A DNA stretch of 64,000 bases from Methanomicrobiaceae archaeon (GTDB lineage Archaea > Halobacteriota > Methanomicrobia > Methanomicrobiales > Methanomicrobiaceae): the NCBI GenBank assembly GCA_029762625.1, contig JARVGI010000001.1, positions 372,001 through 436,000 of the forward strand. The letters run 5' to 3'. A program made the position numbers and the translations under genes. The notes under the pieces were generated by a model. It made no database searches. It saw only the letters and a list, made by a program, of their open reading frames with translations, and was not told where the DNA came from. Below are positions 16,553 to 26,388 of this stretch, piece by piece. How positions within the stretch are numbered: the first letter of the stretch is position 1; the number at the start of each line of letters is the position of its first letter.

Positions 16553-16957
16553 TTACTCCACGATCATGTTCTCCGAGTACCGGTCCTCATCGGCGAGGAG
16601 GAACTCGTCGCTCATGTGCAGGGCATCCACCGGGCAGGCATCGTTGCACTGCGAACAGAAGATGCACTGGGTCACATAGATGCGCACCCTCTTGGTCTCG
16701 GGCAGGAATTCAATCGCGTTCGCCGGACAGACCCGGATGCAGAGCTTGCAGCCGATGCAGGTATCGCGGTCGTAGAGGATCTTGCCCCTGAAATTGGGGG
16801 GCGTTTCCACCGGCGGGTGGATCGAGGTTTTTCCTTCCTGTACCGACTGGAGATATTTCGTTACCGAGGGCGGGAGGTACTTCGCCGGGAATATGTTGGT
16901 CGCAGGCCGCTTCAAAAACTGCCTGAGAATCTCGGGAATTGCGGGAAGGAAACTCAC
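16553..16957 (-). CDS. mbhN: Mbh hydrogenase ferredoxin-like subunit MbhN (NuoI-like)
   Basis: This 134-residue subunit has two [4Fe-4S] motifs, CIGCKLCIRVCP near residue 68 and CIFCSQCNDACP near residue 98. It carries electrons between soluble ferredoxin and the MbhJ/MbhL core and corresponds to NuoI of complex I and EchF. It is the last gene of the operon. Its start overlaps the mbhM stop as ATGA, and the C-terminal region after the second cluster is short and acidic. Confidence 0.93.
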   Translation of the reverse strand: MSFLPAIPEILRQFLKRPATNIFPAKYLPPSVTKYLQSVQEGKTSIHPPVETPPNFRGKILYDRDTCIGCKLCIRVCPANAIEFLPETKRVRIYVTQCIFCSQCNDACPVDALHMSDEFLLADEDRYSENMIVE

Positions 16958-17988
16958 AGCATACCACCTCCTCCAAGGGAGGCGTCAAGCACCACACAGA
17001 GCAGCCCCAGCAGTCCCAGGCCGCCGAGATACCCCCAGTAGATGGAGACCACGTGGGTGATCCGGAACCTCGCCATGCCCACCCTGATCACGGAGACGGA
17101 GAAGAAGATCACCACCATGAGTTTGAGCAGGAAAAAGGCGAAATCCGCCACGAGCGCTGCATTGGGGCTCAGGGCCACGTACCATGAGATGTTCCAGGGC
17201 AGAAAGAGCGCCACGGCAAGCGCCGCCATGGCCACGGTTTTGACGCCCTGCGCAAGGTAGAACAGGCCAAGGTTCCTGCCGGAGTATTCCACCAGCAGAC
17301 CGCCGCAGAGCTCGGTCTCCGCCTCCGGCGTATCACAGGGGACCCGGGAGAGCTCCGCCGGCGTCACCCATGCGAGCACGATGAGCAGCAGCACAAAGCC
17401 GATGATGCCCAGCGGGCCTGCCACGCTCCAGATGGTGATGCCGGTTGCGGTCCCGGCGATGGTGGCCAGCGAAAAGGGATCGGCGATCCCTGCCGCGGCC
17501 AGCCGCCATGCGATGGCGATGACCGCAATGGCCAGGGGCAGTTCATAGGACATCATGGTCACCATCTCACGCTGGGACCCGACTGTTGCGTACGGCGACC
17601 CCGAGGCGAACCCGCCCGCCACCAGCGCGAGCGCCGGCACGGTGAGCAGGTACATCACCAGGATGAGGTCCCCGTACCCGGCAAGGACGGGCAGGAAGCC
17701 ACCCAGGGGGATATAGAGCAGGATCACGATGGACGATGCCAGCGCCAGCACGGGAGCCATGTTGAACAACAACGGGATGGCGTTTTCCGGGACGATGGAG
17801 TCCTTGGAAAGGAGTTTTGCCACGTCCCGGAAGGGCTGGCGTATGGGTGGCCCGATCCTCGCCTGCATGTGGGCGGCGAACTTGCGCTCGACACCCATGA
17901 ATACCAGCCCGGCGAGAATGCCGAAGAGCGCCACCGCAACGGTCCCTCCGATAATCGAGATCGGATCCATTCCGAGCATCATGACCAT
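16954..17988 (-). CDS. mbhM: Mbh hydrogenase membrane subunit MbhM (NuoH-like)
   Basis: This 344-residue protein with about eight membrane helices anchors the hydrogenase arm to the membrane arm, like NuoH/EchB. Family features are KFAAHMQARIGPP near residue 32 and CDTPEAETELCGGLLVEYSG near residue 218. The ATG at 17988 has the SD GAGGAGG 8 nt upstream; an ATG two codons on would give an exact ATGA overlap with mbhL. It is predicted to help couple electron flow to ion movement. Confidence 0.94.
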   Translation of the reverse strand: MVMMLGMDPISIIGGTVAVALFGILAGLVFMGVERKFAAHMQARIGPPIRQPFRDVAKLLSKDSIVPENAIPLLFNMAPVLALASSIVILLYIPLGGFLPVLAGYGDLILVMYLLTVPALALVAGGFASGSPYATVGSQREMVTMMSYELPLAIAVIAIAWRLAAAGIADPFSLATIAGTATGITIWSVAGPLGIIGFVLLLIVLAWVTPAELSRVPCDTPEAETELCGGLLVEYSGRNLGLFYLAQGVKTVAMAALAVALFLPWNISWYVALSPNAALVADFAFFLLKLMVVIFFSVSVIRVGMARFRITHVVSIYWGYLGGLGLLGLLCVVLDASLGGGGML

Positions 17989-19217
17989 TGCGCCAGCCTC
18001 CTCGTCTTTTCGACCGACAATCGGTGCAGGTCCGCTTTGGTGAGGATATCGGTCCGGTCATCCCGCACCACCGCCACACGGTCGGTGCAGGACATACAGG
18101 GATCGATCGACGCGACCACGATGGGGATGTCCGCTATCTGTTCCCCTTTCAGCATTTTAAGCCATGAAAGCTGGTTGCTGTAGGTGGAAGCCTTCACCTT
18201 CCAGGTCTGCGGGCTCGGGTTGCCGTCCATGCGCACGTAGTGGAGGCATTCGCCCCGCGGCGCCTCAACGCGGCCGACCGCCTCGCCCGTCGCTTTCTTG
18301 CAGGCGGCAAGGATCTTGGGGTACTTCTTCTCCCACAACACCTCGCCCGGCGGCATGTTTGCGAGGCACTGGCGGATGAGATCGACCGACTGCACGACCT
18401 CCAGCAGGCGGACAACGATGCGGTCGTAGACGTCGCCGTTGGTGAGCCCGAGGTAGTGGTGGGGCAGCACCGGCGCAATGTCGAGGTCGCCGTAGGCCGC
18501 GTAGGGTGAGTCGGAGCGCACGTCCATGGCAACGCCTGATGCCCTCGCGGTCGGGCCCACGGTGCAGAGCTCGAGGGCTTCCCTCTTCGACATCACGCCG
18601 CACTGCTTGCAGCGTATCTGGATGGTTTTGTCCTCGAGGAAGAGTTTGAGCAGTTTAGCGGCGATATCTTCGTAATATTGCAGGGACGCCTCGATCCGCG
18701 GGAACTGGTCCTCGGTGAAGTCCCGCCGGACACCGCCGACCTGGACGATGCCGTAGTTGACCCGGTTGCCGGTGAGGTACTCGATGACATCCATCGACTC
18801 CTCGCGCACGCGCCAGGCGAGGAAGAAGAGGGTGTCGAATCCCAGCTCGTGGGCCGCGACACCCGCCCACAGCAGGTGCGACTGGAGGCGCTCATACTCG
18901 GCGATAATGGTCCGTACATAGTGCGCCCGTTCCGGCACCTCGATCTCCGCGATCTGCTCCACCGCTCTCGCAAAGGCCAGCGAGTGCGAAACCCCGCAGA
19001 TACCGCAGATGCGGTCGGTGAGATGCACGATCTGGACGGGGTTCCTGCGCATCCCCATCCATTCGATGCCCCGGTGGCACTTGCCGGGGGCGAAATCGAC
19101 TTCCTCGACCAGCTCTCCGTCCATCTTGAAGGTGAAGAGGATCGGCTCTTTTAACGCGGGATGGACGGGGCCGATGGGGACATTGAAGGTCGCTTTGTTC
19201 TTTGAATCCTCACTCAT
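17979..19217 (-). CDS. mbhL: Mbh [NiFe]-hydrogenase large subunit MbhL
   Basis: This 412-residue catalytic subunit has both nickel-binding Cys pairs: RICGICGVSHS near residue 69-79 and DPCMSCTDR near residue 372-380. A tail of 32 residues follows the second motif, as expected for a precursor cut by a HycI-type protease, and such a gene lies across the convergent gap. Retained cysteines mean a true hydrogenase rather than the Mbs/Mbx type that has lost one pair. The SD GGGAGGTG precedes the ATG. Confidence 0.96.
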   Translation of the reverse strand: MSEDSKNKATFNVPIGPVHPALKEPILFTFKMDGELVEEVDFAPGKCHRGIEWMGMRRNPVQIVHLTDRICGICGVSHSLAFARAVEQIAEIEVPERAHYVRTIIAEYERLQSHLLWAGVAAHELGFDTLFFLAWRVREESMDVIEYLTGNRVNYGIVQVGGVRRDFTEDQFPRIEASLQYYEDIAAKLLKLFLEDKTIQIRCKQCGVMSKREALELCTVGPTARASGVAMDVRSDSPYAAYGDLDIAPVLPHHYLGLTNGDVYDRIVVRLLEVVQSVDLIRQCLANMPPGEVLWEKKYPKILAACKKATGEAVGRVEAPRGECLHYVRMDGNPSPQTWKVKASTYSNQLSWLKMLKGEQIADIPIVVASIDPCMSCTDRVAVVRDDRTDILTKADLHRLSVEKTRRLAQWS

Positions 19218-19887
19218 CGTTCTTCACCTCCCCGGTTTCGGGCTCCGCCGGCGGGCTCTGCTCCGGCGTATCGCCGGCAGGGGCGGGCTCCGCCTCATGC
19301 TCTTTCTTCTTCTCCTCTTTCGGCGTCACGGGCGGTGCCGGCCTGTCGGTCGGCCGCCCTACCGCCCAGAGGTTCTTGACCATATCCTCCCGGATCCCGG
19401 TCTCGTCCTTTCTCCACGGGTAGACGCCCTCGGGGAAGTCGGGCGGCAGGAAAAGACCCCGTGAATCGGGGATGCCGGCCACCTTGATTCCCAGCATTTC
19501 CTGTTTTTCCCGCTCCGAATACACGGCGCCGGGGATGATGTCGGAGATGGTGGGGATGGAAAGATCGCTTTTCTGCAGGGGCACCGCCAGCGTGACCTTG
19601 ATCTCTTGGCCCCGTTCACCGAAATAGATCCACATGTGGTAGAGCAGCTCGATCTCGTCACCGATATCCGCACCCGAGATGACCCCGAGGTGCGGATAGT
19701 CGATGTCGACAAGACACTGCACGGCATCATGGAAGATATCACGGCTCATCCTGATCCAGACGGCCCGGTTTGGTGTCTTTTTCAATCCCTCGGCCCATTC
19801 CCTGATGGTGACCTCACCGATGGCATCGCCGAATTTTTCGGTGAATACTGCGGCGATCTCCTCGGGGGTATGTATCGTCCGTGTCAT
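19210..19887 (-). CDS. mbhK: Mbh hydrogenase subunit MbhK (NuoC-like, 30-kDa family)
   Basis: This 225-residue subunit has a complex-I 30-kDa domain over residues 1-175, including the signature YSEREKQEMLGI and a following FLPPDFPEGVYPWRKDE. The last 48 residues are a Pro/Glu/Lys-rich tail with no predicted fold (PAPPVTPKEEKKKEHEAEP and similar), longer than I expect for MbhK. The gene overlaps mbhL by 8 nt. The SD is GGGAGAAGG. Confidence 0.92.
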   Translation of the reverse strand: MTRTIHTPEEIAAVFTEKFGDAIGEVTIREWAEGLKKTPNRAVWIRMSRDIFHDAVQCLVDIDYPHLGVISGADIGDEIELLYHMWIYFGERGQEIKVTLAVPLQKSDLSIPTISDIIPGAVYSEREKQEMLGIKVAGIPDSRGLFLPPDFPEGVYPWRKDETGIREDMVKNLWAVGRPTDRPAPPVTPKEEKKKEHEAEPAPAGDTPEQSPPAEPETGEVKNDE

Positions 19888-20315
19888 TTGCCTTCTCCCT
19901 CCAGCCGTTCAAGTTTTGCGATGGCCTTGACCACACCGTCGATGATCGCCTCGGGGCGCGGGGGGCAGCCGGGGACGAAGACGTCCACCGGGATGTGCTC
20001 CTCCAGCGGGCCCACCAGGTTGTATGAGTCGTAAAACACCCCTCCCGACATGCAGCTCCCGATGCCCATCACCACTTTCGGGTCGGCCATCTGCTCGTAG
20101 ACCCGTCGCGCCCGGTCGGCCATTGCCCGGGTGACCGGGCCGCTGACCAGCAGCACATCCGCATGCTTCGGCGAACCGACAAGTTTTATCCCGAACCTCT
20201 CGGGGTCGTACCGCGGCGTGAGCGTTGCCACGATCTCGATATCACATCCATTGCAGGATCCGGTATTCAGATGGAACACCCACAATGAACGGTTAAACGC
20301 TTTGGTCAGTCTCAT
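19884..20315 (-). CDS. mbhJ: Mbh hydrogenase small subunit MbhJ (NuoB-like)
   Basis: This 143-residue subunit holds the proximal [4Fe-4S] cluster next to the NiFe site. The four ligands are in GSCNGCDIE (residues 19-27), GIGSCMSGG (near 86) and VPGCPPRPE (near 117). No additional cluster motifs are present, as in the group 4 energy-converting hydrogenases. It is joined to mbhK and mbhI by short overlaps. Confidence 0.95.
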   Translation of the reverse strand: MRLTKAFNRSLWVFHLNTGSCNGCDIEIVATLTPRYDPERFGIKLVGSPKHADVLLVSGPVTRAMADRARRVYEQMADPKVVMGIGSCMSGGVFYDSYNLVGPLEEHIPVDVFVPGCPPRPEAIIDGVVKAIAKLERLEGEGK

Positions 20316-20659
20316 GCAGCAACCCCCACGATCACGAATACCAGTGCCATCACCCCGAGGAACCAGAGCACATAGTCGTTGAGCACGCCCGTGTGCAGGG
20401 GCACGAGGCGGGAGTAGTAACCCTTCATAGCCTCCGTGAACCCCCAGTACAGGTTTCCGGCGCGCATATGGACGTCAGCCTTCTCCGGCTCCACGTTCCC
20501 CGAGAGGAAGGGCTTGACCGCCTGCGTGTCGCGGGGGTACTCCTTCTCGCCGAGCAGCCAGATGGCGAGAGCGATCAGGAAGGCAACCAGAAAGACGACG
20601 ATCCAGACGACGGGATCCCAGAACCCGGTTCCCGTCTGCAGGGTATACGCGTCCAGCAT
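20312..20659 (-). CDS. mbhI: Mbh hydrogenase membrane subunit MbhI
   Basis: This 115-residue protein has one membrane helix near the N-terminus, a central soluble loop (KPFLSGNVEPEKADVHMRAGNL) and a second helix at the C-terminus. It matches the MbhI position between the NuoL/M-like subunit and the small subunit. The ATG at 20659 is preferred because SD GGGAGGTG sits 5-6 nt upstream; an in-frame GTG three codons earlier overlaps mbhH. Confidence 0.85.
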   Translation of the reverse strand: MLDAYTLQTGTGFWDPVVWIVVFLVAFLIALAIWLLGEKEYPRDTQAVKPFLSGNVEPEKADVHMRAGNLYWGFTEAMKGYYSRLVPLHTGVLNDYVLWFLGVMALVFVIVGVAA

Positions 20660-20660
20660 C

Positions 20661-22235
20661 CTAGGCACCTCCCAGCACCGAGGCGATATAGCCGCCCTGG
20701 TCGATCAGCGCTCCTGCCGCAGGGGTGATCAGGAGGTCCACCACTTCCTGGGGGAACACCCCGAACAGGATGACAAGAAGCGAGAGCAGCGCCATTCCGA
20801 TAATCATCGGCGCAGGCACTTCCCTGACGTCGGCGTACTCGGGGAGGCGGGGGCCCATGAAGATGGAGTGGAACACCTTCACGAACGAAGCCAGGGTGAG
20901 GATACTGACGACCATGGCGATGATTGCGAGAAGCGGGTTGAAAAGGAACACCGATTCGTAGATCATCAGTTTGGAGGCAAACCCATTAAAGGGTGGGATA
21001 CCTGCAATCGCCAGCGCACCGATAATGAAAAAGACCATCGTCCATTTCATCGAATGGCCGAGCCCGCCGAGCTGGTTGAGGTTGCGGGTTCCCGTCCGGT
21101 AGAAGATGGCGCCTGCGGTCAGAAAGAGCAGCCCCTTGTACATCGCGTGGTTGATGATGTGAAAGATGCCGCCTTCCATGGCGATCACGCCGTAGGTGTC
21201 GAGCAGCTGCTGGTTGCCCAGCACGGCAAGCCCCACGCCAACGCCGAGGAGCATGTAGCCGGTCTGCGAGACGGCGTGGTAGGCCATGAGCCGTTTGACG
21301 TCCTTTTGCGGGATGGCCATCGTCACCCCCACGAACATGGAGAGCACACCGAGGATGATGATGATCCAGCCGATGGTCGCGTACTCCAGCGTAAGACCGT
21401 AGAGGGTAAAAACCACCCTGAATACCCCGTACAGGCTCGCCTGGCTCGCCACCACCAGAAGAGCGGTGATGGACGAGGGCGCCATCGAGTACGCGTCCGG
21501 CGTCCAGAAATGCATGGGCACGGCACCCGCCTTCATGGCGAGCGCGACGAGCAGCATCACGAGAGCGATCTGGTCGAGCGGGGTAAACAGCATCCTGCTG
21601 GCGATCACGGCGATGTTGAGGGCGCCGTACTGCCCGTAGAGAAGGGCGATGGCGAAGAGGACGAGCAGCCCCCCGAGGGTGGAGAGCACCGCATACTTCA
21701 GGCCCGCCTCGACCGCCACCCCCTTATCGACCCGTGAAGCGACGAGCGCGGCACCTGCAAGGGAGTTGATCTCTAAGAAGACGAAGAAGTTGAACATATC
21801 GCCCGTGCAGACCATGCCGAGAATGCCCACGACGAGGAGCAGGAGCAGGGCATAGTACCCGTTCTGCCCCGTGCTCCGTGATGCGCTGGCGAACGAGTAG
21901 AGCATGACGCCGAGGCCGACGAAGGAGGCGGCGAGGGCCATGAACGCGCCCATTGCGTCCACCGTGAAGATGATCCGGATGGGTATGCCCCCTGAATCGG
22001 CGGGTACCGTGAGATCCGGCGTTTCGGCGCCGAAGGTGTAGACCACGGTCCCCGTCGAGAGGACCTGTGCGGTGAGGAGGACGGCGACGGCAAGCGTCGC
22101 CAGCATGATCGCCACAGCCCAGAGATTCCGTGCGCCTCCGCTCGCTTTGCCGATGAGGGGCGTGGCAAACGCGCCGAGCATCGGCACGGCAAGCAGCAGC
22201 GCCGGCAGGTTCTGGAGAAGTAATTCCTGCATCAT
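20661..22235 (-). CDS. mbhH: Mbh antiporter-like subunit MbhH (MrpD/NuoN family)
   Basis: This 524-residue protein has about 14 membrane helices and belongs to the proton/sodium-translocating MrpD/NuoL/M/N family. The family core includes the EINSLAGAALVAS segment near residue 152, the MKAGAVPMHFWTPDAYSMAP stretch near 236, and HAMYKGLLFLTAGAIF near 362. The conserved Lys and Glu of the ion channel are within these. It is predicted to couple ferredoxin/H2 electron transfer to ion movement. Confidence 0.95.
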   Translation of the reverse strand: MMQELLLQNLPALLLAVPMLGAFATPLIGKASGGARNLWAVAIMLATLAVAVLLTAQVLSTGTVVYTFGAETPDLTVPADSGGIPIRIIFTVDAMGAFMALAASFVGLGVMLYSFASASRSTGQNGYYALLLLLVVGILGMVCTGDMFNFFVFLEINSLAGAALVASRVDKGVAVEAGLKYAVLSTLGGLLVLFAIALLYGQYGALNIAVIASRMLFTPLDQIALVMLLVALAMKAGAVPMHFWTPDAYSMAPSSITALLVVASQASLYGVFRVVFTLYGLTLEYATIGWIIIILGVLSMFVGVTMAIPQKDVKRLMAYHAVSQTGYMLLGVGVGLAVLGNQQLLDTYGVIAMEGGIFHIINHAMYKGLLFLTAGAIFYRTGTRNLNQLGGLGHSMKWTMVFFIIGALAIAGIPPFNGFASKLMIYESVFLFNPLLAIIAMVVSILTLASFVKVFHSIFMGPRLPEYADVREVPAPMIIGMALLSLLVILFGVFPQEVVDLLITPAAGALIDQGGYIASVLGGA

Positions 22236-22576
22236 CCTCTCAACTTCCTTACTTTTTCAGCGTTCGCAGTGCCGTACATCCGGTAGATCACCATCACAAA
22301 CGAGAGCAGGAGCGCCGTCGTGGCGATCCCGATGACGATATTGGTCAGCGTCATCGCCTGCACGGTCGGCATCACCATCACTCCGTCGGGAGCGCTGGTG
22401 AAGATCGGGGCGATGCCCCCTGCCCGGTAACCGATTGACACGAGCAGCAGGTTGACGCCTGCTTCTACCAGCGCCAGCCCCATGATCATCTTGATGAGGT
22501 TGCGCTTGATCAGCATCGTGATGATGCCGAGGATCACGAGCAGCGCCGCCACGATGAACGGGAGATTGAAAAACAT
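22232..22576 (-). CDS. mbhG: Mbh antiporter-like subunit MbhG (MrpC/NuoK-like)
   Basis: This 114-residue protein has three membrane helices, like MrpC and NuoK. The segment KMIMGLALVEAGVNLLLVSIG carries the conserved Glu in the second helix. It overlaps mbhH by 4 nt and mbhF by 1 nt. Confidence 0.92.
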   Translation of the reverse strand: MFFNLPFIVAALLVILGIITMLIKRNLIKMIMGLALVEAGVNLLLVSIGYRAGGIAPIFTSAPDGVMVMPTVQAMTLTNIVIGIATTALLLSFVMVIYRMYGTANAEKVRKLRG

Positions 22577-23040
22577 CAGATTTCCTCCTTTGTTCCGGAC
22601 AGCATGTAGAGCACGATCACCGAAAGCGCTCCGAGCACCTCGATGCCGACTGCAAGGTTCATGACCGGAATGAAGCCTGCGGTATTGAGATCCCCCGGAT
22701 TGGGGCCGTAGGCTACCGGGTTGTTCAGGACCGGGCCGACATCGAGCATCCAGTTGGTAAAGAACGTCACCCCGAACCCGAGGGCGACGAGGGCGGTGAC
22801 AATGAAGAGCAAAAGCCCGATCGTCTCGGTGGTATGGAGCGATTCAGCCCCGATGCACCCGGTGATGAAGTCATAGGAGTACGCCACGAACATGAGCACG
22901 AACCCCGTCGCGATCACCGCGCCGCCCTGGAACCCGCCGCCGGGGGTGAGGTGGCCGTGGAGGACGATGTAGAACCCGAAGACAAGGATGAACGGGAAGA
23001 GCAGGTTTGCCGCCGACCTGACGATTTTACTCATATTCAT
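22576..23040 (-). CDS. mbhF: Mbh antiporter-like subunit MbhF (MrpB-like)
   Basis: This 154-residue membrane protein is of the MnhB/MrpB family, recognised by YIVLHGHLTPGGGFQGGAVI near residue 30. The frame is open upstream into mbhE; ATGs at 23049, 23040 and 23034 are possible. I prefer 23040 because the SD GGGAGG then lies 9 nt away; the ATG at 23049 would sit directly against it. Confidence 0.9.
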   Translation of the reverse strand: MNMSKIVRSAANLLFPFILVFGFYIVLHGHLTPGGGFQGGAVIATGFVLMFVAYSYDFITGCIGAESLHTTETIGLLLFIVTALVALGFGVTFFTNWMLDVGPVLNNPVAYGPNPGDLNTAGFIPVMNLAVGIEVLGALSVIVLYMLSGTKEEI

Positions 23041-23311
23041 AGTCTTCATCCTCCCTTCGCTTCCTGAATGCGAGACCGGCACCGAGCACCGCGGTGAAGA
23101 GCACCGTGGCCTCGCCTAACGTATCGAATCCCCTGAAATCGAACACGATGTCGGTGACAATGTTGTTGCCGCCGGTCTGTTCCTGTCCGTGACTGACAAA
23201 ATAATCGTCCATATCGGTGAAGGGCGGAGCCCCGAATTCAAGGCCCACCCCTGCATACAGTATGCCGAGGGACAGGATGAGCACGGTTGCGCCAATGACC
23301 AGATTCTTCAC
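23027..23311 (-). CDS. mbhE: Mbh subunit MbhE (MrpB/MbhE-like small membrane protein)
   Basis: This 94-residue protein has an N-terminal membrane helix (NLVIGATVLILSLGILYAGV), a central loop, and a second helix in the C-terminal part before a charged tail RKRREDEDYEYE. The motif DFRGFDTLGEATVLF is typical of MbhE/MnhB N-terminal modules. The start is a GTG overlapping the mbhD stop as GTGA; the longer open frame upstream lies inside mbhD and is not real. Confidence 0.88.
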   Translation of the reverse strand: MKNLVIGATVLILSLGILYAGVGLEFGAPPFTDMDDYFVSHGQEQTGGNNIVTDIVFDFRGFDTLGEATVLFTAVLGAGLAFRKRREDEDYEYE

Positions 23312-23565
23312 TCTTCCACCTCCTCCTCCATTCGCCGGGTGCCCCGTATCGCCACGATGAAGATCGCCGTGGTGAGCCCCGCACCGATGCCCGCTTCCGC
23401 GATGGCCACGTCGGGGGCCTGCAGGATGTAGAATTCCAGGGACAGCAGGAAGCTGAAAATACCAAACGCAATCGCCGCCGAAAGGAGGTCCCTGAAATGG
23501 ATGACCAGCAGTGCCGCACATATCAGGCCGACGAGCACTGCCGCGTGCACGACGAGCTCTATCAT
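23308..23565 (-). CDS. mbhD: Mbh subunit MbhD (MnhB/NuoJ-like)
   Basis: This 85-residue, three-helix membrane protein carries LQAPDVAIAEAGIGAGLTTAIF, the DUF4040-type signature found in Mrp and Mbh complexes, where the Glu in the last helix is part of the ion path. It ends in an acidic tail. It overlaps both neighbours by 4 nt. Confidence 0.9.
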   Translation of the reverse strand: MIELVVHAAVLVGLICAALLVIHFRDLLSAAIAFGIFSFLLSLEFYILQAPDVAIAEAGIGAGLTTAIFIVAIRGTRRMEEEVEE

Positions 23566-23918
23566 TCGCGCACCTCCTGCAGGCGGTCGACCACGGCGGG
23601 TTTGGGAACCTGTCCGCTGCGGTGCGCCGCCCGGGCGATGGCGTGCGCCCCGGTGGCGTTGGTGAATGCCAGCGCCAGCAGTGCGACGAACGTGTGCACG
23701 GACAGCGTGAGATACGTCCCGGTCTCGCCCTCCATGACCCGGGCGGCGCCGTAGACGATCACCGCGAGGGAGATGAAGATCGTCCCGAACGTCGTCGTCT
23801 TCGTCTCGGCGTGAAGCCTCGTGTAGACGTCCGGGAACCGGAGGATGCCGAGCACACCGAGCGCGTTGAAGAGCAGCCCGATGCCGAGGCAGACCATGAT
23901 GATCGTATCGGCGATCAT
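23562..23918 (-). CDS. mbhC: Mbh antiporter-like subunit MbhC (MrpG-like)
   Basis: This 118-residue protein has three membrane helices of the MnhG/MrpG family. The motif LGILRFPDVYTRLHAETKT between helices one and two is characteristic. The C-terminal 20 residues are hydrophilic. ATGA overlaps link it to mbhB and mbhD. Confidence 0.92.
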   Translation of the reverse strand: MIADTIIMVCLGIGLLFNALGVLGILRFPDVYTRLHAETKTTTFGTIFISLAVIVYGAARVMEGETGTYLTLSVHTFVALLALAFTNATGAHAIARAAHRSGQVPKPAVVDRLQEVRE

Positions 23919-24178
23919 GCGCTTATCTCACCCCCCAGGTACTTGGCGATATACAGCGTGCCCACGAACGAGAGCAGTGCGTAGACGATCGCCACGTCGA
24001 CGAACACCGTCTGCTCGTATGCCACGCTGAGCACGATCATCGATGCCACGGTGAGGGTGTTGACGGTGTCGAGCGCCACCACGCGGTCGGGAGCGGTCGG
24101 CCCGATCAGCAGACGCACCAGGGTGAGCACGATCAGGGCGCCGAGCACGGCGACCGCGACAAACCACACCTCCGTCAT
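23915..24178 (-). CDS. mbhB: Mbh antiporter-like subunit MbhB (MrpF-like)
   Basis: This 87-residue, three-helix MrpF-family protein shows the conserved RLLIGPTAPDRVVALDT after helix one. The ATG at 24178 gives an ATGA overlap with mbhA; seven extra codons upstream are open but overlap mbhA further. Confidence 0.91.
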   Translation of the reverse strand: MTEVWFVAVAVLGALIVLTLVRLLIGPTAPDRVVALDTVNTLTVASMIVLSVAYEQTVFVDVAIVYALLSFVGTLYIAKYLGGEISA

Positions 24179-24702
24179 TCGGCAATTCTCCTGATCCATT
24201 CGGGGAACTGGAAGAGGGCGAACACATCGTCCGGCTCAAAGGATTCCTTCGTTTCAGTTCCCATCCCGATGTTGATCATGTGCACGTAGAGATCGTTGGT
24301 CTCCTCATCGACACCCACCGTGAGCGTCCCCGGCGTCAGCGTAATGGAGTTTGCCAGCAAAAGCACCCCGAGGTCCGTCTCCAGTCCCGTCGAGAGCTTC
24401 ACGATCCCCGGCCTGATCTTTCCGGTTATCACACGATACGCAACATCGATATTCGCCCGCGCCATCTCGATGAAGAAAGGCACCGCCGCATATGCCACGA
24501 GCAGCACCCAGCGCAGGGGATTCGCCATCCGGTATTCACCCGTCCTGCAGAAAAATTTGCGGGAAATGGCAGCAACGACAAGACTGATTCCACCGCCTGC
24601 AATCAATTCCGCCTGGGACCACAGGCCGATCGTTCCGCTTCCGGCCGTGAGCACCAGGTAGACGAGATATGCAAACAGTGCGGTTACCAAAAACGCGATC
24701 AT
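24175..24702 (-). CDS. mbhA: Mbh antiporter-like subunit MbhA (MrpE-like)
   Basis: This 175-residue protein of the MnhE/MrpE family is the first gene of the mbh operon. It has four predicted membrane helices in the first 110 residues, then the family segment LLANSITLTPGTLTVGVDEE and a soluble C-terminus. The SD AGGTGATG precedes the ATG. The 280-nt spacer upstream holds a strong inverted repeat that may control the operon. Confidence 0.92.
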   Translation of the reverse strand: MIAFLVTALFAYLVYLVLTAGSGTIGLWSQAELIAGGGISLVVAAISRKFFCRTGEYRMANPLRWVLLVAYAAVPFFIEMARANIDVAYRVITGKIRPGIVKLSTGLETDLGVLLLANSITLTPGTLTVGVDEETNDLYVHMINIGMGTETKESFEPDDVFALFQFPEWIRRIAE

Positions 24703-24778
24703 TGCATCACCTGAAACACACCCATTTCGTCCTCCTCGTTACGGTACAAGTAGAATCAAACGAGATCTATGTGGAACA

Positions 24779-24812
24779 GCGAATAATGTTGCGATAAGTA
24801 CACATTATTCGC
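24779..24812. promoter_or_regulatory. Perfect 11-bp inverted repeat upstream of mbhA
   Basis: GCGAATAATGT and ACATTATTCGC are exact reverse complements separated by 12 nt. The site lies 77-110 nt upstream of the mbhA ATG and 170-203 nt upstream of the divergent PUA/PP-loop gene. It could be an operator for a dimeric regulator or a stem-loop. Confidence 0.6.
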
Positions 24813-24944
24813 CGCATTCTACATGATTAATTATGATCAAGCGGGAAAGATATACCTTTTGACCTGTCCCTTTTCGGGAGAAGGGGCGTTTTGGCAGGGG
24901 CGGTGCGGGACCAGTGCCGCGATACGTCGATGCCCGTTTCACGC

Positions 24945-24954
24945 ATTATTTATC
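24945..24954 (+). promoter_or_regulatory. TATA-like box for the PUA/PP-loop gene
   Basis: ATTATTTATC is centred about 33 nt before the ATG at 24982, which supports that start over the longer open frame beginning near 24823. Confidence 0.4.
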
Positions 24955-24981
24955 AGCCCGGCATCCACTGTACCTACTAGT

Positions 24982-26388
24982 ATGCGCCGTTCATACCTCG
25001 GGAAACTGGTCCTCCGCTGGTGCGATCGCTGCCACGTGCCCGTGCTGGGCAGCCGCTGCGCCTGCGGCGCCGAAACCAGACCGGTTCCCATCACCCCGCC
25101 GGGAGACATCCGCCCGGCGTTTGATGCAGATATCAGGCACATCAATACGGTGTGCAGGGAATATTTCGGATCGGATCTCGTCCCGGAAGGGCACCTCGCC
25201 CTCCTGAACAAGATTCCCGACGCCGACCGCATGGAAGAGATCATCCTTGGCGGAAGCGTGGTCAGCGCACTCCGTTTTCTTCCCGGCGAGAAGCGCTGGG
25301 AACCCATCCCGCGGCTTGCCGCGGCACAGTTCATGCAGCCATCGAAACGACGCGTGATCGTCGACCGCGGCGCTGTCGAATCAATCCGGCAGGGTTCGAG
25401 CGTGCTTGCGCCCGGGCTTGTCGGGATGGACGAAGGGATATGCGAGGGCGACGAGGTCGTCATCTTCGATGAGGACGGGCAGTGCGTCGGCGTGGGCAGG
25501 GCAAAAGTCGGCACCGGAGAAGCGCGCACCATGCAACGGGGCATGATCGTCCGCACCCGCAAAAATGTCCCGTCACCCTGCATCCCGGGCAGGGCGACAT
25601 GGGACGATGCGGTGGAGGCAAACAGTGCCATTCTCGACCGCGCCGAAACCGAAAGTGTTCGGTTCGTGCGCGATGTGGCGGCAAAAAACCCCCTCCCGGC
25701 AAATGTCTCCTATTCGGGGGGCAAAGACAGCCTTGCGACCCTCCTCATCGTCCGCAAGGCGATCGGCGAGGTCCCCCTGCTCTTTGCGGATACGGGGCTT
25801 GAGTTTGCTGAGACCTACCGGAATATCGAGGAGGTCGCATCGGCGTACGGGCTCGAGGTGATCCGCACGGGCAGCGCGGACACCTTCTGGGAAGCTTTTG
25901 CGCGGGAAGGCCCTCCTGCCGTCGATAAGCGGTGGTGCTGCAAGGCATGCAAACTGCTCCCGGTGCGCGATCTCATCGCAGAGCGGTGGGGCGAATGCCT
26001 CTCGTTTATCGGGCAGCGCAAGTACGAATCGTTTGCACGAAAAAACAGTCCGAGGGTATGGAGAAACCGCGTGGTCGGCTGCCAGCTTTCCGCCGCACCC
26101 ATCCAGCACTGGACCGCCCTGCATGTCTGGCTCTACCTCTTCCGCGAGCACGCCCCCTACAATGCGCTGTACGAGCAGAGGATCGACAGGATCGGGTGCT
26201 ACATGTGCCCCTCGAGCGACATGGCGGTGTTTGAGACGATTCGCGAGGAGTTCCCCGAACTCTGGGCGACCTGGCAGGCGAGGCTCATCCAGTGGCAAAC
26301 AATAAACGGCCTCTCCGTCGAATGGATAGAGAAGGGATTGTGGCGACGTATCGGAGAATCAGGGGATGAAGACGGTAGCTATTCTTGA
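24982..26388 (+). CDS. Zn-ribbon/PUA/PP-loop ATPase with Fe-S cysteines (PAPS reductase family)
   Basis: This 468-residue protein has three parts. Residues 10-30 hold a zinc-ribbon half (WCDRCHVPVLGSRCACG). Residues about 115-200 look like a PUA RNA-binding domain (RRVIVDRGAVESIRQG through GVGRAKVG). The C-terminal half is a PAPS-reductase/PP-loop domain with YSGGKDSLATLLIV. Cysteines in RWCCKACKL and IGCYMCPSS could bind [4Fe-4S]. Archaeal members are annotated as PAPS reductases; with a PUA domain, an RNA-sulfur role is equally possible. The start follows a TATA box; the end overlaps hisH by 23 nt. Confidence 0.88.
   Translation: MRRSYLGKLVLRWCDRCHVPVLGSRCACGAETRPVPITPPGDIRPAFDADIRHINTVCREYFGSDLVPEGHLALLNKIPDADRMEEIILGGSVVSALRFLPGEKRWEPIPRLAAAQFMQPSKRRVIVDRGAVESIRQGSSVLAPGLVGMDEGICEGDEVVIFDEDGQCVGVGRAKVGTGEARTMQRGMIVRTRKNVPSPCIPGRATWDDAVEANSAILDRAETESVRFVRDVAAKNPLPANVSYSGGKDSLATLLIVRKAIGEVPLLFADTGLEFAETYRNIEEVASAYGLEVIRTGSADTFWEAFAREGPPAVDKRWCCKACKLLPVRDLIAERWGECLSFIGQRKYESFARKNSPRVWRNRVVGCQLSAAPIQHWTALHVWLYLFREHAPYNALYEQRIDRIGCYMCPSSDMAVFETIREEFPELWATWQARLIQWQTINGLSVEWIEKGLWRRIGESGDEDGSYS

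Follow-up and report, generated by a model that had tools for sequence, protein, structure and literature searches.

We lean, with moderate confidence, towards reading the region upstream of the mbh operon as two separate elements lying side by side: an operator that overlaps the predicted transcription start and would belong to a carbon-assimilation regulon, and a leader hairpin found in one genus only. The reading draws on the sequence itself, on its conservation among relatives and on its sharing between promoters.

Locus layout and the mbh operon

The window (the whole 64-kb stretch of DNA analysed) comes from a genome of 2.2 Mb (G000), and two other members of the same genus (G001 and G002) were available for comparison. 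Pfam matches of mbh-type kinds were obtained in 12 of the 13 reading frames scanned. The subunits recognised were MnhE, MrpF, MnhG, MbhD, MnhB, NuoK-like, antiporter-like, Oxidored_q6, 30-kDa, [NiFe]/49-kDa, NADHdh and ferredoxin-like, which identifies this as a genuine mbh operon. A search with MnhE found relatives among Methanomicrobiaceae, Methanoregulaceae and Methanocalculus. Since the operon runs leftwards from 24702 and the ATG of the divergent plus-strand gene is most likely at 24982, the spacer between them is 24703-24981, which bears out the length of 279 nt given in the initial annotation. The main features of the locus were as follows.

16553..24702, minus strand: mbh operon, with Mrp-type subunits, MbhD, antiporter-like subunits, [NiFe] hydrogenase and Fe-S subunits (Pfam)
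24699..24725, minus strand: mini-ORF encoding MGVFQVMQ, with a TGA stop that overlaps the start of mnhE (ATGA) (sequence reading)
24731..24737, minus strand: strong Shine-Dalgarno-like GAGGAGG (read from the sequence)
24824..24830, minus strand: predicted mbh transcription start, some 26 nt downstream from the centre of the TATA-like stretch (archaeal promoter geometry)
24850..24856, minus strand: TATA-like GGTATAT of the putative mbh promoter (read from the sequence)
24857-24862, minus strand: BRE-like TCAAAA (read from the sequence)
24982..26388, plus strand: divergent gene for a protein with a PUA domain and a PAPS-reductase domain (domain search)

The start was placed by the usual geometry of archaeal promoters, in which transcription begins about 26 nt downstream of the TATA centre. 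The ATG of the mini-ORF is missing in G002. As a raw count, taken without a chance control, 56 of 58 genomes have an ORF with a start codon that terminates at the mnhE start or overlaps it; in g5 this ORF is a conserved short peptide ending in GSVGSE or alike.

The dyad: sequence, rarity and conservation

The inverted repeat reported in the initial annotation is exact, with 11-bp arms that are 100% complementary and 12 nt between them. It is enclosed by a second, outer repeat.

24747..24756, minus strand: outer inverted repeat, forming 9 of 10 pairs with 24816-24825 and enclosing the dyad (inverted-repeat search)
24779..24789, minus strand: dyad arm, GCGAATAATGT as read on the plus strand; the 3' arm in mbh mRNA, where it reads ACATTATTCGC; identical in the three genus members
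24790..24801, minus strand: 12-nt spacer, the loop of the predicted hairpin; 4 of its 12 columns vary among the three genus members
24802..24812, minus strand: dyad arm, ACATTATTCGC as read on the plus strand; the 5' arm in mbh mRNA, where it reads GCGAATAATGT (inverted-repeat search)

Such a repeat could have arisen by chance and been retained, without function, through conservation of the whole leader in three close species. Shuffle counts, in which spacers of 3-30 nt were allowed, speak on both sides of this explanation. Arms of at least 11 appeared in just two of 2000 dinucleotide shuffles of the 279-nt spacer, whereas eight shuffles of the entire 64-kb window gave four such repeats in all, that is, about 0.5 each, against the one observed. 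The dyad is therefore unusual for the 279-nt spacer but not for a window scanned end to end; the earlier argument from 4^-11 overstated its rarity.

Conservation upstream of orthologous mbh operons, on which the proposed regulatory role had been made to depend, does not extend beyond the genus. Among the 59 mbh upstream regions examined across the order, three, all from one genus, had arms with at most four mismatches of 22, and the next-best region had seven mismatches of 22. Both arms are exact in G001, where the loop is changed. In G002, one arm is kept and the other carries two changes, reading GCGGATAATGG at 24802..24812; the change of A to G keeps a G.U wobble pair, in the mbh-sense strand only, and the second change breaks the innermost of the 11 pairs, only three sequences being compared. 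Across the leader of these three sequences, 14 of 122 columns vary, with two of 22 in the arms, four of 12 in the loop and eight of 88 in the remainder. The arms are without special protection, and the loop is freer (Fisher p 0.036 for the loop against positions outside arms and loop, on small numbers). That the arms show no more conservation than the leader around them, and that G000 and G001 differ little, suits a chance repeat; the faster change of the loop, on the same small numbers, does not.

The half-site was sought in the genome, as had been suggested, and exact copies occur only at the dyad (both strands, one site), with no reuse at other promoters. One-mismatch copies numbered 15, scattered in the genome, and a backwards control pattern gave three. 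Being restricted to one genus, with a unique half-site and with arms that vary like the rest of the leader, the dyad does not fit a widely used operator responding to redox, metal or H2 state. Action on both divergent genes, also proposed earlier, is unlikely, as about 130 nt separate the dyad from the TATA-like stretch belonging to the plus-strand gene.

The dyad as a probable leader hairpin

The dyad is probably a lineage-specific 5'-leader hairpin in the mbh mRNA, with a putative function. Counted from the predicted start, it occupies about +15 to +48 of this mRNA, a place that favours a hairpin of the 5' leader. When the first 80 nt of the leader were folded as mbh-sense RNA, z was -3.5 in G000, -4.2 in G001 and -3.0 in G002; at 120 nt the values were -2.5, -2.7 and -2.0, respectively, with -2.1 for the antisense strand. 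The outer repeat was present in the 80-nt folds of all three genomes and absent from the best 120-nt fold. These scores, together with the sense-only wobble pair of G002, favour a leader hairpin and fall short of proof; folding of the antisense strand is almost equally good and the arms vary like the leader, so conservation does not single out the hairpin. The low z in all three species nevertheless counts against a chance repeat, as does the scarcity of such arms in shuffled spacers, and we rate the chance explanation as rather unlikely.

Stem-loops at the 5' terminus of an mRNA can stabilise transcripts. The dyad resembles these in that its 11-bp stem begins some 15 nt into the mRNA as predicted, and it differs from them as a hairpin of one genus that matches no Rfam family: a scan of 24600-25100 gave nothing near the gathering score, and the best hit (E 4.4) was away from the dyad.

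We consider it improbable that the dyad itself is the DNA operator of a genus-specific regulator, with two half-sites spaced by about two turns of the helix, immediately downstream of the start. Its exact symmetry, a position downstream of the start that suits an archaeal repressor, a right arm unchanged in all three species and a resemblance, noticed after the fact, between CATTATT in its arms and the half CATNATT of the palindrome described below would all agree with this, but the half-site is not reused in the genome, the dyad is absent from 56 of the 59 mbh upstream regions, the left arm of G002 lacks CATTATT, and a matrix built from that palindrome gives no score of note over the dyad.

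A near-palindrome conserved in the order

A regulatory signal is nevertheless present at the mbh promoter, as the initial annotation had supposed; it is not the dyad but a separate near-palindrome a few bases away, which is far more widely conserved.

24816..24836, minus strand: near-palindrome TCATAATTAATCATGTAGAAT, proposed operator over the predicted start (25.6 bits with the mbh matrix)
24822-24835, minus strand: palindrome core CATAATTAATCATG, then A+T-rich bases (alignment of mbh upstream regions)

Of the 74 genomes of the order with the mbh first gene, 59 were examined; the 15 left out were G063 and 14 genomes of g21, a diverged genus. A 20-letter consensus, drawn by eye from the same mbh regions that it scored, matched at 15 or more of its 20 positions in 42 of the 59 regions, compared with 11 of 1180 shuffles. 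The other 17 were without a clear motif; they include all members listed of g5 and g9, both of which have mbh. In several genera of the family the palindrome is preceded, at about 25-28 nt upstream, by a TTCAAAAG-type stretch. Because the consensus came from the regions scored, the independent test is that of a matrix made from mbh sites only (31 distinct ones) and applied to other promoters. Within the 64-kb window, this matrix gave 25.6 bits at the palindrome and 10.1 at the best non-overlapping match.

Two more general leader structures were considered and set aside. An order-wide leader hairpin is unsupported, as the 42 genomes with the motif have leaders that are, on average, only weakly structured (mean z -0.68); their best perfect arm was 5.95 nt, against 5.52 in shuffles, with p < 0.05 in three of 42, two of which belong to this genus. 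Pairing of the 3' half of the palindrome with sequence downstream was rejected as a general structure, with p < 0.05 in five of 42 genomes and a combined p of 0.11. Four genomes, G123 (L132), G053 (L155), G068 (L133) and G034 (L153), of which G053 and G068 form a pair, carry a 10- to 11-bp inverted copy of this 3' half 17-53 nt downstream in the leader. In the Methanocalculus-like genus g14, an ORF of about 33-35 codons runs from an ATG inside the palindrome to over the mnhE start (L134, L135, L136, L138, L154, L156 and L159), with a CRC motif in most copies.

Sharing of the palindrome with porC and acs

The mbh matrix was applied to the 300 nt upstream of porC, acs and, as a control, alaS, with the 99% level of shuffles as the threshold. 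The porC and alaS sets came from the same 20 genomes of 16 genera; porC had been chosen after one match was seen (G031, L187), and a model search had already listed five of its 20 sites. The 20 acs regions came from 12 genomes, paralogues included, and the same search had listed seven of them.

All 20 porC regions exceeded the 99% level, with a median of 18.0 bits compared with -3.2 in shuffles, and every site lay upstream of the match start, at a distance of 30-42 nt. For acs, 17 of 20 regions exceeded it (median 20.2) and three were without a site. No alaS region did so (median 0.2), five of 20 being above the 95% level. Rank tests against alaS gave p-values of 3e-8 for porC and 5e-6 for acs, not corrected for relatedness; close pairs (G000/G001 and G029/G034) are present in the sets, so the counts are not independent events. 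Among the acs sites the best are perfectly palindromic, for example ACATGATTAATCATGT. The palindrome is thus reused as in a regulon, at orthologous mbh promoters and at the promoters of linked genes, above the alaS control.

The model search covered 10 genomes and, besides mbh sites, the 16 loci inspected comprised six at acetyl-CoA synthetase genes, one at PorC, two at genes for HTH-CBS proteins, one about 150 nt away from a transporter gene and six others. Among 20 further matches, four were at por-type genes (PorC in G005 and G002; PorB/VorB-like in G024 and G009, both scoring narrowly below the family cut-offs) and the other 16 were without a visible link. In its own genome the site is found at mbh, acs (L123) and porC, the acs and porC sites being individually weak (E 0.2 and 0.7).

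Several single loci are recorded here as side observations. The second-best own-genome match, L181 (G000:C11:29904-29921, E 0.02), ranks above the acs and porC sites and adjoins a gene that gave a weak match to a LuxR-type HTH and none in NCBIfam. L180 (G005:C30:46977-46999, E 4.8e-4) lies about 150 nt from a gene for an MFS transporter of the oxalate/formate or lactate type. The own-genome acetyl-CoA synthetase genes are at G000:C2:15031-16455 and G000:C11:7713-9131, with 81% and 65% identity to the query; both upstream regions are above the 99% level, and there is an additional relative at 43%.

We give little credence to the idea that the palindrome serves strong promoters of the order as their core-promoter or initiator sequence and is not a regulator site: it is A+T-rich, lies 10-25 nt downstream of TATA-like stretches and keeps a fixed distance from the gene at porC, but alaS, the sole control gene, gave no region above the 99% level (albeit five of 20 above 95%), the distance between palindrome and TATA-like stretch differs between mbh and porC, and the best sites are true palindromes.

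Comparison with known operators and candidate regulators

Operators of archaeal repressors may overlap the transcription start, as palindromes of about 16-20 bp located between the TATA box and the start or over the start. The near-palindrome shares with them its placement and its presence at several promoters of one pathway; it differs in its gene set of mbh, porC and acs, which we did not find described in the open-licence literature searched, and in that its regulator is putative.

The box bound by the regulator MsvR is given as TTCGN7-9CGAA in PMC3729527, where homologues are said to occur in Methanomicrobiales. As in our case, this is an inverted repeat near the TATA box or start of a methanogen promoter, and it is bound by a homodimer. 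It was rejected here: the dyad reads CGAA-N24-TTCG, that is, with the opposite arrangement and a long spacer, the order-wide palindrome is without a TTCG half-site, and no MsvR-type match was present in 24703-24981. Elsewhere in the window TTCGN7-9CGAA had three matches, compared with 5.6 expected.

Two kinds of protein are candidate regulators. An HTH(PF03444)-CBS protein was present in all 20 genomes searched, and in only four of these did the start of its own gene carry a site exceeding the 99% level. HTH/PAS proteins are encoded divergently from acs in G005 and G024. The open-licence literature that we searched yielded no description of a site shared by mbh, por and acs; within that literature the mbh/porC/acs site appears undescribed, whereas a transcription-factor site as such is of a known kind.

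Proposed control of mbh

On the two-element reading favoured here, 24816-24836 would be the operator of a putative homodimeric DNA-binding regulator. A protein bound over the predicted mbh start would block RNA polymerase, and as the operator overlaps that start, repression is the likeliest mode. The same site at porC and acs would make mbh part of a carbon-assimilation regulon that may comprise acetate activation, pyruvate synthesis and a hydrogenase supplying reduced ferredoxin. The partner promoters point to carbon assimilation and not to redox or metal state. The dyad would be transcribed and, in this genus only, fold into a stem-loop close to the 5' end of the mbh transcript, where its likeliest role would be to adjust mRNA stability or the folding of the leader.

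Methanomicrobiales need low-potential ferredoxin for pyruvate synthesis, and an energy-converting hydrogenase can supply it. We tentatively propose, as a possibility somewhat short of even, that through the palindrome WCATNATTAATCATGWNAAAT one putative regulator controls Mbh, pyruvate synthase and acetyl-CoA synthetase across Methanomicrobiales, that Mbh serves as an anabolic supplier of ferredoxin and not in heterodisulfide reduction, and that the mRNA hairpin adds a second layer of control in this genus. A role of Mbh in heterodisulfide reduction was suggested as a possibility in a 2009 genome paper (PMC2686161).

The dyad is of little import beyond its genus. Transcription control in Methanomicrobiales has been little studied, and a control site common to mbh, porC and acs offers a testable case for Mbh feeding carbon assimilation, with the palindrome as a ready DNA bait for the regulator.
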